The notes beneath the pieces were generated by a model. The model ran no database searches. It saw nothing but the letters and a program-made list of their open reading frames with translations, and was not told the DNA's origin. From Fidelibacterota bacterium (lineage in GTDB: Bacteria > Fidelibacterota > Marinisomatia > Marinisomatales > TCS55), in contig JASLML010000006.1 of the NCBI GenBank assembly GCA_030746535.1, positions 1-48,920 on the forward strand: 48,920 nucleotides of DNA, written 5' to 3'. Made by a program: the position numbers and the translations under genes. Below are positions 6,278 through 35,010 of this stretch, in pieces. Numbering within the stretch: position 1 is the stretch's first letter; each line of letters begins with the position of its first letter.

Positions 6278-7179
6278 CAAAATCAGAAAAAACCAGAGCG
6301 GATCTCACCACGGAAAAGCAGAATCCGGGAAGCATTAACCTTGATGCCATGTCTGTCCGGGCAATGCTTACCTTTATCAATTCTGAGGATCAAATCGTTG
6401 CGGAAAAAGTAGCCGATGCAATATCGGACATTGAAAAGACCGTCGAACTCACGACCGATGCCCTTCGTAACGGAAACAGAATATATTACATCGGCGCCGG
6501 CACCAGCGGACGGCTTGGTGTTCTGGACGCATCTGAAATGCCGCCGACCTTTTCTGTACCCAGTGACTGGTTCACCGGAATTATCGCGGGCGGTGATGAA
6601 GCGCTAAGGAAATCCATTGAAGGAGCAGAGGATAAGCCAGAAAATGCTGAAAAGGATCTCAACAATGCAGGTCTGTCTTCCGGAGATGTGCTGATAGGTA
6701 TCAGCACCAGTGGTGCCGCCACTTATGTAAAGGCAGCAATCGAATATGCCAAAATGCAACAAGCTTCAACTGTTTATCTGATCTGCAATCCGGAGCCCTA
6801 TCTTAAAGCAGATGCCGATATAGTGATTCGAGTAGATGTGGGCCCGGAAGTAATCACGGGATCTACGCGAATGAAATCGGGCACGGCAACCAAGCTAGTA
6901 TTGAATATGATTTCGACAGCAACCATGGTGGCGCTGGGAAAAGTATACAGAAACCTGATGGTTGATCTGATGGCGGTCAATGAAAAATTGGTGGATCGCG
7001 GCACACGCATCATTGTTCAGCTTACCGGCCTGCAGTATACTGATGCACTGGAGGCGCTGAAAAATGCTGATATGTCTGTGAAAAAAGCCGTGGTGATGGT
7101 AAAGGACAATTGTTCGGGGAAGGATGCGGATGCACTGTTGAAAAAAAAAGGAGGAATACTGAGGGATATCTTAGACTAA
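6274..7179 (+). CDS. murQ: N-acetylmuramic acid 6-phosphate etherase
   Basis: SIS domain with YIGAGTSGRLGVLDASEMPPTFS, GGDEAL, VITGSTRMKSGTATKLVLNMIST, C-terminal LLKKKGGILRDIL; 301 aa; GTG start overlapping the AGCS stop. Confidence 0.95.
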   Translation: MTKSEKTRADLTTEKQNPGSINLDAMSVRAMLTFINSEDQIVAEKVADAISDIEKTVELTTDALRNGNRIYYIGAGTSGRLGVLDASEMPPTFSVPSDWFTGIIAGGDEALRKSIEGAEDKPENAEKDLNNAGLSSGDVLIGISTSGAATYVKAAIEYAKMQQASTVYLICNPEPYLKADADIVIRVDVGPEVITGSTRMKSGTATKLVLNMISTATMVALGKVYRNLMVDLMAVNEKLVDRGTRIIVQLTGLQYTDALEALKNADMSVKKAVVMVKDNCSGKDADALLKKKGGILRDILD

Positions 7180-8621: not shown

Positions 8622-9582
8622 TTTTATCGAACATTTAGATTTCCTGAGGAAGGAAATAGACAAGGCGCTAAAAAAGCTTCCAATCAAAAAAAATTCTTCC
8701 GAATTCGAAGCGCCTATCATGTACGCGCTCAAAGGAAAAGGGAAACGCATTCGTCCGATTCTTACGCATCTAGCCGGAAAAGCCTTTGAAGCCGATCCCG
8801 AAGATTTGATAAACGCAGGGATTGCCGTGGAACTTCTGCACAATTTCACTCTCGTTCATGATGATATAATGGACGGCGACCTCATCCGCCATGGACAGGA
8901 CGCCGTTCATGTAAAGTGGGATGAGCCCGCTGCCATTCTTGCCGGCGACGGCATATTTGTTCTTGCCCAGCTATCTTTGGGAAGAATAAGGGAAGGAACC
9001 TTAAAAGCCCATCGTTGTTTCAATGAGTCCGCACTCGAAGTGTGCGAAGGACAGGCAATGGATTTGAATTTTGCATCAGACTCAGAAATTGGATTAAACG
9101 ATTATCTCGAAATGATCGAAAAGAAAACAGGAAGTTTGCTTGGGTGTGCGGCTCAGTTGGGCGGCATCCTCGGAAGTCAAGATGAAAAGACATGTGAAAG
9201 CTTGAAATCCTACGGACGCAATTTGGGAAAGGCATTTCAGATCCAGGATGATATTCTCGAAATTTTCAGTGATCCGGAATCTATGGGGAAAAGTCTCGGA
9301 AGTGATGTTCTAACAGAAAAACAGACGGTGCTCACATTAATCGCAAAAAAGGATAATGCCACCGAATGGAAAAAAAAATCAGCTGAAGCAAGAAAGCTGC
9401 AGATTGATGACCGTCTTTCTTTTTTACGTGAATATTTTGAACAAAATGGAATCCGGATGAAAGCATCGCTGCTGGCGGAACAAACAGCCGAGGAAGCCCG
9501 AACCTCTCTCGGTGTTGTACCGGAATCACGCAGGAATGAACTGGAAGCGTTTACATCAATGATTTTAGAAAGGAAGAATTAA
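8608..9582 (+). CDS. Polyprenyl diphosphate synthase (trans-isoprenyl synthetase family)
   Basis: GKRIRPILTHLAGKA, LLHNFTLVHDDIMDGD first Asp-rich motif, QIQDDILEIFSD second Asp-rich motif; 324 aa; TTG start inside the end of the preceding ORF. Confidence 0.92.
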   Translation: MGTPDFIEHLDFLRKEIDKALKKLPIKKNSSEFEAPIMYALKGKGKRIRPILTHLAGKAFEADPEDLINAGIAVELLHNFTLVHDDIMDGDLIRHGQDAVHVKWDEPAAILAGDGIFVLAQLSLGRIREGTLKAHRCFNESALEVCEGQAMDLNFASDSEIGLNDYLEMIEKKTGSLLGCAAQLGGILGSQDEKTCESLKSYGRNLGKAFQIQDDILEIFSDPESMGKSLGSDVLTEKQTVLTLIAKKDNATEWKKKSAEARKLQIDDRLSFLREYFEQNGIRMKASLLAEQTAEEARTSLGVVPESRRNELEAFTSMILERKN

Positions 9583-31372: not shown

Positions 31373-32764
31373 TCAGGCTGCGGCCTCCTCTACATTTTTC
31401 AGGTGAGAATAATATCCATCGCTGTACCTCCAGATCGTTCCTGCGCCCATAGTCAATACCATGTCTCCGGGCTGTGCGGTTTGGTCCAGTATTTGGTTCA
31501 GTCCGTCCAAGTCTGGGATAAAGGTGACTTGCGGATGTCCCGCTTTTTCGGCGGCTTCAGCCACAAGCGAACCGGTAATTCCTTCGATAGGTTCTTCACG
31601 AGCGGGATAGATTTCAGTAACGATAAGCACATCGCTTGCGAGAAAAGCGTGGGCGAACTCCATGAAAAAATCCCGCGTCCGGGAAAACAAATGGGGCTGA
31701 AAAACAGCGACGATTCTTCTGTCCCATCCGCTTTTGGCTGCCTGAAGGGTTGCCTTTACTTCGGTGGGATGATGGGCATAATCATCCACAACCATAATGT
31801 CATTCACGGTTCCTTTTATTTCGAATCTCCGCCGCACTCCCTTGTATGCTTCCAATCCTTTGATGATGTCATCAGTTGAAAGTCCGAGCTCAATTCCAAT
31901 GCACGCGGCGCCGAGCGCATTCATTATATTATGTTCTCCCGGCACATGAAGCCGGACCGAGCCCAACTCGGATTCGTTTTGAAACAGAATAAAAGACGAG
32001 CTGTTATTTTCGTATGAAATATGTTCCGCCCGTATGTCGGCATCCGATCCTAAGCCGTATGTCATAACAGGGCGGCGGATGTCAGGAAGGATTTGTTTTA
32101 CATGTTTCGAATCCGCACAAACCGCCACAGCTCCGTAAAATGGAACCGAATTGCAAAACTGCAGAAATGCCTTTTTCATGTCCTCAAGGTCAGAATAAAT
32201 ATCCGTGTGCTCGAGCTCAATATTGGTCACGAGGGCGAGCGTCGGGTTCAATGCAAGAAAACTGCGGTCGTATTCGTCGGCTTCTACAACGATCACATCT
32301 CCTGAACCAAGCATGGAATTAGTTCCAATACTTTGAACAAGTCCGCCTACCACTAGGGTCGGATCTAAACTTGCTTCAGCCAATACTGACCCAACCATCG
32401 AAGATGTGGATGTCTTCCCGTGAGTTCCTCCGACAGCAACGGATGTTTCCTTTACATCTATAAGTTCTCCCAGCATTTCAGCCCTTCGAATGACGGGAAT
32501 ATTCCTTTGGCGTGCTGCCATTATTTCGGGATTATCATCTTTAACGGCACTGGAGTAAATCAGGACTTCCGCATCCCCCACGTTTTGTTCATCGTGTCCG
32601 ATGAAAATTTTCGCGCCTTTCTTCATTAAATTTTGGATAATATCAGATTCTGCGATATCAGAACCTGTGACCTCAAATTCGAGGTTAATAAGCAGTTCAG
32701 CAATGCCGCTCATACCGATGCCGCCAATTCCGACAAAATGCAGTTTTTTTACTTTTCTAAACAT
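31373..32764 (-). CDS. murC: UDP-N-acetylmuramate--L-alanine ligase
   Basis: KLHFVGIGGIGMSGIAELL, VAVGGTHGKTSTSSMV, VVEADEYDRSFL, VVDDYAHHPTEVKATL. Confidence 0.97.
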   Translation of the reverse strand: MFRKVKKLHFVGIGGIGMSGIAELLINLEFEVTGSDIAESDIIQNLMKKGAKIFIGHDEQNVGDAEVLIYSSAVKDDNPEIMAARQRNIPVIRRAEMLGELIDVKETSVAVGGTHGKTSTSSMVGSVLAEASLDPTLVVGGLVQSIGTNSMLGSGDVIVVEADEYDRSFLALNPTLALVTNIELEHTDIYSDLEDMKKAFLQFCNSVPFYGAVAVCADSKHVKQILPDIRRPVMTYGLGSDADIRAEHISYENNSSSFILFQNESELGSVRLHVPGEHNIMNALGAACIGIELGLSTDDIIKGLEAYKGVRRRFEIKGTVNDIMVVDDYAHHPTEVKATLQAAKSGWDRRIVAVFQPHLFSRTRDFFMEFAHAFLASDVLIVTEIYPAREEPIEGITGSLVAEAAEKAGHPQVTFIPDLDGLNQILDQTAQPGDMVLTMGAGTIWRYSDGYYSHLKNVEEAAA

Positions 32765-33321
32765 TAGCCTGCTAATTCCAAAATGTGCTCTGTGATTTCT
32801 CTGACCGCATCCGGTTTTGCGAGACTTTTCGATTTTCTGCTCATTTCTGAGAGACGGTTCGAATCTTTCATCAATTCGCTTACTTTGTTCACCAAAACGG
32901 ACGGCGATAATTCACTTTCCCTGCATACCACGGCAGCACCTTCATTTTCCATTACGGACGCGTTTTTTTGCTGATGATCACCTGCAGCAGAAGCAAGGGG
33001 GACAAAAAATGCCGGAAGGCCGCATAGCGCGAGTTCAGAAACGGTGAGTGCGCCGGCACGGCAAAACACAAGATCGGAGAGAGCATACGCACTTCCCATA
33101 TCATCAATAAACGGCAGGACCCTTGTTGAAGCGGATTCAAATGATCGGATAGAACTATATTGGTTAATGCCGGTTTGCCACAGCACCTGGATTCCGTATT
33201 GTTCGAGATCAATAACACTTTCACGCATGACTTTATTTAACGGAACGGATCCTTGACTTCCGCCAAACATGAGCAGCGTCTTTTTTTCGGGATCAAGATT
33301 GAATTGCTGTGCAGCGGTCAT
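32764..33321 (-). pseudogene. murG: MurG C-terminal (UDP-GlcNAc-binding) portion, split from the N-terminal portion by a frameshift
   Basis: LLMFGGSQGSVPLNKVM, DLVFCRAGALTVSELALCGLPAFFVPLASAAGDHQQKNA: MurG C-domain; frame opens upstream through ...KKTLFVTGNPVREGIQNGDK-M. Confidence 0.88.
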
Positions 33322-33863
33322 TTTATCACCGTTCTGTATGCCTTCCCGAACCGGGTTCCCCGTGACAAATAAAGTTTTTTTTTGAGATGATTTTTTGCTT
33401 CTTCAAACGCGATGCAGATTTTATCCGCTTTCTCAGCGAACCATCTGGTCGTAATTCCGGGAAATGAATTCTGTTCCTGAATGAGAACAGGAATCTTTCT
33501 GTTAACTGCTTCTCGAAGCGGCAGTGCAGCCGCGTACCCGCCTGTCCCTACAACTACATCGGGATGAAACCTGTTAAATACACGCCGTGTCTTTCTCATG
33601 GAATTCAAAATCCGAAACGGAAGAAGCAGATTTTTCCCAATGCTTTCCGGGCTGAAGCTTCGCTGAAGTCCCCGAATCGGAATCAATGTGTGGTCAAGAT
33701 TTTTTACGGGTAATACCTGCGCTTCGATTCCAAAGGTTGATCCCATGAAGTAAACGCTGGAATTTGGCTTGTCCGAAAGAATCTGTTCTCCGAGTGCAAG
33801 GGCAGGGAAGAGGTGTCCGCCGGTTCCGCCTCCGGCAATCAGGATGCGTGGATGGTCAGCCAT
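33318..33863 (-). pseudogene. murG: MurG N-terminal (lipid I-binding) portion ending prematurely after an A9 tract; may be expressed via slippage
   Basis: ILIAGGGTGGHLFPALALGEQI, VVVGTGGYAAALPLREAV, PVLIQEQNSFPGITTRW; after the A9 run the protein ends in a non-MurG tail LYLSRGTRFGKAYRTVIK. Confidence 0.88.
33375..33383 (-). other. A9 homopolymer (T9 on + strand): frameshift/slippage point within murG
   Basis: Minus strand CTC AAA AAA AAA CTT; reading one A twice, or A10, gives KKK-TLFVTGNPVREG, the expected MurG sequence. Confidence 0.85.
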
Positions 33864-35010
33864 TGATTCTTGGACTCCATCCTTTGCTGTGTGTTACGGA
33901 CCGTTTTCCCTGACTGATATTGAGTAATATGCCAAGGCTTGCCATATTTACTACCAATCCGGATCCGCCGAAACTCACCAGCGGCATTGGCAGCCCTGTT
34001 GTCGGAACAAGGTTCGTAACAACCGCCGCGTTTGTAAAAGCATACAGTATAAAACTGAATGAAATACCAAGAGCAACCATAACGCCGAACGGATCGGTGG
34101 TTTCTTTCGCAACTTTTATTCCGCGCTGAAAAAGGAAAAGAAAGAGGGTCAAAACAGCAACCGTTCCCAGAAAACCGATTTCTTCTCCAATGATTGCAAA
34201 AATAAAATCTGTGTGCGGTGTTGGAAGAAATAAATTCTTTTCAAGGCTGTTTCCGAGTCCCATCCCGAACAGTCCGCCGTTCCCCAGCGAAATCAGGGAT
34301 TGATTGATTTGCAGCATGGCATCGCTGGAAGCCGTTTCCGGACTCCACCACGTTTCCCATCTGGAAACCCGATAGCCTCTAGCTAATCCTGCCGGAATGA
34401 GTACAGCAATTGCTCCGGCTGTTGTTGCCATAATGTGCGGAAATCGGGCACCGCCGAAAAACAGCATAGCCATTCCAATAACGGAAAGAAGAACGGCCGT
34501 ACTGAAATCCGGCTGAATAATGATCAGTGCTGCAATTATGCTAATCACGATAAGCGGAGGTGCAAATCCGGTGTAATAATCCTGAATCTTGTCGCGTTTC
34601 CTGTCGATGTAGGATGCTAGAAAAAGAATCAGTGAAAACCTTGCAACATCGGATGTTTGGACGGTCATAAGTCCAAGGTTGAGCCAGCGGGCCGGGAAGG
34701 TGTTTCCCTGGATGACATAGATAATTTTTGTGATGAGCAGCAGTCCGATGGATATCACAATCGCTGCCGGCGCAATTCGTTTGAGATGCCGGTAATCCAC
34801 CACAACAAACAGAAACATCGCGATTACACCGATAAGCAGCCGCTTCAAATGAAGCTGAAGGTACATGGTGTTTGTTATGCCGTCCGTAAAGTTGAGAGAA
34901 CGGGATGTACTTGCGCTGTAGAGCATAACCGTTCCAATGACGCACAGTGCAAATATGCCGATCATGAGCGGCTTGTCGTATTTTTTAATGATGATGTTTA
35001 GCTGCGTCAT
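33856..35010 (-). CDS. ftsW: Peptidoglycan polymerase / lipid II flippase-type SEDS protein FtsW
   Basis: Polytopic protein; IGTVMLYSASTSRS, AIIIIQPDFSTAVLLSVIGMAMLFFGGAR-type segment, HTDFIFAIIGEEIGFLG, TNLVPTTGLPMPLVSFGGSGLV. Confidence 0.95.
   Translation of the reverse strand: MTQLNIIIKKYDKPLMIGIFALCVIGTVMLYSASTSRSLNFTDGITNTMYLQLHLKRLLIGVIAMFLFVVVDYRHLKRIAPAAIVISIGLLLITKIIYVIQGNTFPARWLNLGLMTVQTSDVARFSLILFLASYIDRKRDKIQDYYTGFAPPLIVISIIAALIIIQPDFSTAVLLSVIGMAMLFFGGARFPHIMATTAGAIAVLIPAGLARGYRVSRWETWWSPETASSDAMLQINQSLISLGNGGLFGMGLGNSLEKNLFLPTPHTDFIFAIIGEEIGFLGTVAVLTLFLFLFQRGIKVAKETTDPFGVMVALGISFSFILYAFTNAAVVTNLVPTTGLPMPLVSFGGSGLVVNMASLGILLNISQGKRSVTHSKGWSPRING

Follow-up and report, generated by a model that had tools for sequence, protein, structure and literature searches.

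The murG gene of a Fidelibacterota bacterium is divided between two overlapping open reading frames (ORFs) that meet at a run of nine A residues. We consider it likely that this two-ORF gene is genuine and that full-length MurG arises by a -1 slip in a run of A9 to A11. Sequence comparisons indicate that the break is real, old, and maintained, and the patterns of conservation reported here give good support to a frame change at the A run as the source of full-length MurG. The slippage itself, its level, and its stage, together with translational restart at the second ORF and the role of that restart, we infer from the same comparisons.

Organization of the murG locus

The window, i.e., the whole stretch of 48,920 nucleotides that was analyzed, has a GC content of 46% and belongs to a draft bin of 1.47 Mb in 74 contigs, 85% complete. 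The nearest named relatives of its murG come from Candidatus Neomarinimicrobiota, which is Fidelibacterota in the present NCBI taxonomy and is also called Marinimicrobia or SAR406. On the minus strand, ftsW, murG, and murC follow one another in that order with overlapping ends, and the features of the locus are as follows.

33856..35010, minus strand: ftsW, from the ORF list (TIGR02614, 314 bits), the upstream neighbor, whose end overlaps the murG start by 8 bases
33318..33863, minus strand: murG ORF1, 0 frame, 181 aa, N-terminal MurG domain (TIGR01133 positions 5-157)
33375..33383, minus strand: A9 tract at the MurG interdomain hinge, with 0-frame codons AAA AAA AAA and a homologous A9-A11 tract in 35 other genomes
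33322..33375, minus strand: transframe segment, TLFVTGNPVREGIQNGDK when read in the -1 frame, whose codon-position differences show conservation as protein in that frame
33346..33360, minus strand: GNPVR, the first motif of the C-domain, which precedes the restart codon and aligns with TGNPVR of the solved MurG structures 3s2u and 7d1i
33325..33330, minus strand: Shine-Dalgarno (SD)-like GGTGAT, read from the sequence, 3 nt upstream of the restart codon
33318..33321, minus strand: ATGA, in which the 0-frame stop of ORF1 (TGA) and the start of ORF2 (ATG) overlap, read from the sequence and from stop/start adjacency in relatives
32764..33321, minus strand: murG ORF2, 185 aa, C-terminal UDP-GlcNAc-binding MurG domain (TIGR01133 positions 174-352, 151 bits; PDB MurG matches)
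32762..32766, minus strand: TAATG, overlap of the murG stop with the murC start, read from the sequence
31373..32764, minus strand: murC (TIGR01082, 535 bits), the downstream neighbor, whose start overlaps the murG stop

The initial annotation, made from the sequence alone, had proposed that murG is split at the A9 tract, and the two ORFs indeed match the two halves of TIGR01133, with the A9 tract at 33375-33383. Together the halves cover the model, while each alone scores below its curated cutoff of 250 bits. As had also been proposed, ORF1 is a MurG N-domain up to the A run, followed by an unrelated tail: 163 codons reach the end of the Lys run, and the 0-frame reading then passes from NHLKKK into 18 residues unlike MurG, LYLSRGTRFGKAYRTVIK. 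PDB matches to MurG span the C half, including its GGSQG and RAGALTVSE sequences. At the junction, CTC AAA AAA AAA CTT, the -1-frame reading across the run is KK-TLFVTGNPVREGIQNGDK-M. The GNPVR motif lies upstream of the ATG of ORF2, as the annotation had claimed, and in the murG of the window it is reachable solely via the frame change. The A9 tract is thus the putative site of a -1 shift or of A9-to-A10 transcript slippage, and KKKTLFVTGNPVR is the type of peptide that would span the frame junction of the full-length product. Overlap of the murG stop with the murC start was found at 28 of 30 split loci (family f3 has TGATATT) and at many intact loci as well. An Rfam scan of the region gave no match.

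Distribution and history of the split gene

Split murG genes were sought by a survey of the order, class, and phylum, followed by DNA inspection of candidate loci. The same -1 break, within an A run at the domain hinge, was present in 36 inspected genomes from 16 genera and 10 families, a recurrence much too frequent for chance. Six of these families belong to the order of the window (f1, with genera g1, g2, and g3; f3; f4; f5; f8; and f10), two to the same class (f16 and f19), and two lie elsewhere in the phylum (f24 and f25). Close relatives, where the initial annotation had suggested comparing orthologs, carry the identical break in both other genomes of the genus (G001 and G002). Split loci include high-completeness bins and contigs of up to 330 kb. 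A likely 37th case, G158, lies at contig ends. In other families of the phylum, murG was intact wherever the whole gene was visible; none of the 80 nearest named loci, mostly from Bacteroidota, had a split murG, and viral contigs yielded distant relatives only.

The A run is a constant feature of the split loci. It is always read as AAA AAA AAA in the 0 frame, with at least nine A's, and every split locus inspected contains an in-phase A_AAA_AAA. Over the 36 loci, the run is A9 in 9, A10 in 25, and A11 in 2; the first 30 loci contribute 9, 19, and 2 of these, respectively, and all 6 loci of f24 and f25 have A10. No break of the +1 type occurred among the 36. The LKKK codons and GNPVR are equally far apart in all of the first 30 loci, which indicates that the site is homologous; in f24 and f25 the spacing differs by a residue or two.

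Some relatives have an intact frame, which the initial annotation had not recognized. On the MurG tree and on a tree of the flanking FtsW and MurC, at least eight changes between split and intact states were required in each case (f24 and f25 cases not included). This pattern is compatible with a single ancient origin followed by many repairs and equally with repeated origins at one Lys-rich hinge. Two close pairs show that the split state is easily changed. In genus g15, one species has an A9 run and a split gene (L062 in G088), and another has A10 and an intact gene (L045 in G043). In f25, both members of a close pair have A10; one is split, with a GTG near the stop (L194 in G195), and the other is intact (L200 in G194) because of a neighboring indel just after the run. 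G043 and G194 thus read the same A10 run in frame, with no shift needed. The intact murG genes of f1 genera g4 to g8 and of f6, f7, f9, and f13 have a hinge one residue shorter than that of outgroups, which fits repair by loss of two further bases and is only suggestive.

This history invites a neutral explanation, to which we give slightly less than an even chance: a chance deletion in the A run was rescued by slippage, and the gene then became stuck in this state without regulatory benefit. The scattered occurrence of the split, with its eight or more changes on two trees, the frame-restored relatives of split genomes (G043, in the genus of G088, and G194, beside G195), and the slippage-corrected genes known in endosymbionts (PMC5009743) all agree with it. 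The clade-varied stop/start pairing, the better SD sequences, and the avoidance of early stops described below instead show added selection on the arrangement. A neutral ratchet addresses why the arrangement exists and is compatible with a -1 slip in the A run as the account of how MurG is made.

Fidelibacter multiformis, the cultured member of the phylum, does not synthesize its own peptidoglycan and imports muropeptides of other bacteria, a reliance that its authors traced to ancestors of the phylum (PMC11652737). A lowered need for MurG could have helped the split state to last. Eight bins gave no murG match (G018, G037, G046, G090, G091, G190, G203, and G226), five of them rated at least 89% complete. 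Their lack of murG could be a real loss, which would fit the muropeptide dependence of the phylum, or could reflect missing contigs. The window itself includes murQ, a muropeptide-recycling gene, by the call of the initial annotation.

Selection on the -1 frame across the junction

Substitutions between the run and the 0-frame stop were counted for pairs within genera. Differences at -1-frame codon positions 1, 2, and 3 numbered 89, 22, and 177, respectively, and with one pair per genus, 18, 8, and 42. A 0-frame reading would make the second codon position the most variable, unlike coding sequence. Likewise, 165 of the differences were synonymous and 123 nonsynonymous in the -1 frame, compared with 72 and 192 in the 0 frame. 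The codon-position pattern shows purifying selection on the -1 frame downstream of the run and indicates that the junction-spanning peptide is used. The earlier proposal that selection acts on a continuous MurG frame is supported both by this pattern in the transframe segment and by conservation of the break. In 27 of 30 loci, the stretch from the run to GNPVR contains no ATG, GTG, or TTG.

A pseudogene was considered as a separate possibility and rejected; the C half is open in all split loci and is under constraint.

The A run and the stage of the proposed slippage

Runs of A9 are scarce in these genomes. The 1.47-Mb genome has seven, none longer, and that of murG is the only one at a frame break. 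Three of the seven lie within the 49-kb window (7141-7149, 9370-9378, and 33375-33383). The first two are inside intact frames, murQ and a polyprenyl synthase by the initial annotation, whose statement that these runs keep frame holds. Most other split genomes have a few to a few dozen A9 sites (G055 has 5 windows in 2.1 Mb); G010 and G039 are exceptions with many. In G039, overlapping A9 windows come from poly-A stretches of about 50 bases (C18:7638-7690 and C23:35190-35244), which are possibly assembly artifacts. By raw site counts, A9 runs appear to be avoided in these genomes, as is expected of slippage-prone sequence. Runs of A9 to A11 have lengths at which slippage is efficient and are avoided in many bacterial genomes (PMC1088944, PMC5009743). 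Transcript slippage at such lengths has precedents in dnaX and in endosymbiont cell wall genes (PMC5009743) and, at A11, in tssM (PMC4256274).

The Lys codons of the run are three AAA codons and never AAG in all 13 genera tested. Given each genus's own Lys codon use, an all-AAA outcome would have a probability of about 10^-7 under independence of the genera, an assumption that does not hold. Recoding signals around the run were also sought. Pseudoknot-free downstream structure was not detected, with mean z scores of -0.01 for split and -0.12 for intact genes and no covarying fold. An upstream SD stimulator showed no excess either (-3.12 for split versus -3.18 for intact genes). The failure to find RNA structure or an upstream SD stimulator, and the absence of AAG in place of AAA, lead us to favor, somewhat, slippage by RNA polymerase over ribosomal -1 frameshifting.

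Ribosomal frameshifting, in which tandem tRNA-Lys slippage on A_AAA_AAA would make full-length MurG, is a less probable but still credible source of the product. All split loci have a properly phased heptamer and break in the -1 direction, a constancy of direction that was treated as a hint of ribosomal frameshifting in the GeneTack study (PMC3711429). Constant direction is equally expected from shared ancestry, however. Against this mechanism, the searches above were negative for conserved downstream structure and an upstream SD, stimulators that are frequent though not universal; nine contiguous A's are retained where seven would suffice; and AAG, the third codon in the Escherichia coli dnaX site (A_AAA_AAG), is never used as the third Lys codon. 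The initial annotation had left the shift to either the ribosome or the polymerase. The sequence evidence leans somewhat toward polymerase slippage.

A stop/start element at the second ORF

A second conserved element, absent from the initial annotation, is the coupling of the 0-frame stop to a start codon in the second frame. In 29 of 30 split loci, an ATG or GTG of that frame is found no more than 8 nt from the stop, compared with 2 of 63 intact loci scored by the same rule, and the pairing is also seen in f25 and in G152. It takes the form of ATGA in the window and elsewhere of TAATG, TGATG, GTGA, or a gap of a few nucleotides. The restart codon lies 8, 9, 10, or 13 codons after GNP, depending on the clade, and before GNP in f25. 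This variation in position among clades suggests that a working start has evolved more than once. The SD duplex energy before the restart codon is -6.9 kcal/mol in split loci and -3.6 kcal/mol in intact loci at equal offsets.

Early 0-frame stops were examined by synonymous shuffling, with the restart codon as the endpoint and intact genes as the control. Such stops were absent in 11 of 13 split genera, compared with 5.3 expected (P = 7e-4; because of nonindependence among genera, the P values given here make the evidence look stronger than it is). Among the intact genes, 9 of 35 lacked an early stop, compared with 10.2 expected. When coupling was scored on independent pairs, the expected direction was found in 4 to 5 of 6, with none opposed (sign test, ~0.06). 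Together, these features suggest that the restart element probably keeps the second half of murG and the overlapping murC translated.

The same element raises the alternative that MurG is a two-subunit enzyme, its N and C chains being made by coupled restart and assembling with no frame change. Stop/start coupling and the SD sequence at the restart codon would suit this arrangement. In f25, moreover, the restart ATG or GTG is ahead of GNPIR, so the C chain would be nearly complete and the halves could in principle be made without a frame change there. In nearly all of the 30 aligned loci, by contrast, the restart is beyond GNPVR, and the 27 loci without an ATG, GTG, or TTG from the run to GNPVR offer no earlier start. 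Separate chains would not need the segment from run to restart, yet it is conserved as -1-frame protein, and they would make the A9 run superfluous, yet such runs are otherwise avoided. We regard a two-subunit MurG as improbable.

Improbable alternatives: phase variation and sequencing error

MurG is essential in bacteria that make peptidoglycan, which counts against phase variation, in which gain or loss of an A in the DNA would toggle murG on and off. Genus g15, with its A9 split gene (G088) and A10 intact gene (G043), is what such toggling would produce. In each other split genus, the total hinge length is constant among members; run-length differences there are offset by adjacent bases, so that the frame is unchanged. 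We consider phase variation very improbable. Sequencing or assembly error or a strain-specific lesion, the mundane explanation kept by the initial annotation, has a negligible probability: homopolymer miscounts are common and the bin is a draft, but the break is shared by independent genomes of other genera and families (36 genomes in 10 families, with contigs as long as 330 kb) and the -1 frame is under selection, so that error is refuted.

Discussion

Few bacterial cellular genes are known to require a frame change to make a main product, the standard examples being prfB and dnaX. A core peptidoglycan gene with this requirement in at least 10 families of a widespread, largely uncultured marine phylum, together with a second conserved device at the stop reached when the shift fails, would extend recoding to cell wall synthesis. 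In the mechanism that we propose, RNA polymerase would add an A in a fraction of transcripts, restoring the frame at the hinge between the MurG domains. Ribosomes that are not shifted would read at most about 20 more codons before reaching a stop that overlaps or abuts a start codon. There they would probably be recaptured, and both the second half and murC would stay translated. An extension that we think rather unlikely is that, throughout the phylum, the two-ORF murG regularly yields three products (an N chain, the full-length protein via slippage, and a C chain via restart). The rate of slippage would then determine how much lipid II is synthesized compared with murC and the other genes of the cluster, and this in a phylum that includes members feeding on cell wall fragments of other bacteria.

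Slippage is a known class of mechanism. New relative to the literature searched are its proposed occurrence in murG, its spread through the phylum, and the restart element with which it is paired; no report of a split or frameshifted murG was found among open-licence papers, and an apparent mention of murG in a frameshifting review proved to be the surname Murgola. Relatives with A9, A10, A11, and frame-restored genes would provide a natural series on the gain and loss of such sites. In these genomes, gene callers are likely to report a missing or broken murG. This has consequences for a phylum that is under discussion as partly unable to build its own wall (PMC11652737).

Among known systems, prfB (RF2) resembles murG in being a single-copy cellular gene with a frame change over a wide taxonomic range. 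It differs in its +1 direction, its autoregulatory stop codon site, and its strong SD stimulator. In the orfA/orfB arrangement of IS3-family elements, frameshifting is combined with initiation of orfB near the orfA stop. The likeness to murG is in the A-rich shift site and in the position of the second start, near the stop that ends the first ORF, but the product is the transposase of a mobile element and not a cellular enzyme.

The dnaX genes, with Chlorobi-type two-ORF forms at A7 to A10 (PMC3711429) and slippage at A9 in Thermus (PMC5009743), are like murG in being housekeeping genes with an A run of similar length and in requiring a -1 change at the DNA level for the long product. Unlike murG, dnaX yields two working subunits; the short N product of murG is without the remaining catalytic domain, and a coupled restart codon comes next. 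A dnaX family search of the host genome gave subthreshold matches only. Citrobacter rodentium tssM (A11; PMC4256274) likewise has a poly-A run before a premature stop, with slippage leading to full-length protein. It is a secretion system gene reported from two species, whereas murG is a core cell wall gene with a phylum-wide pattern. In cell wall genes of insect endosymbionts such as Buchnera (reviewed in PMC5009743), a broken frame is fixed in part of the transcripts at a long poly-A run, as proposed here for murG. Those genomes are reduced and more than 70% AT, whereas the window has a GC content of 46%, A9 runs number just seven in the whole genome, and the site is conserved over families.
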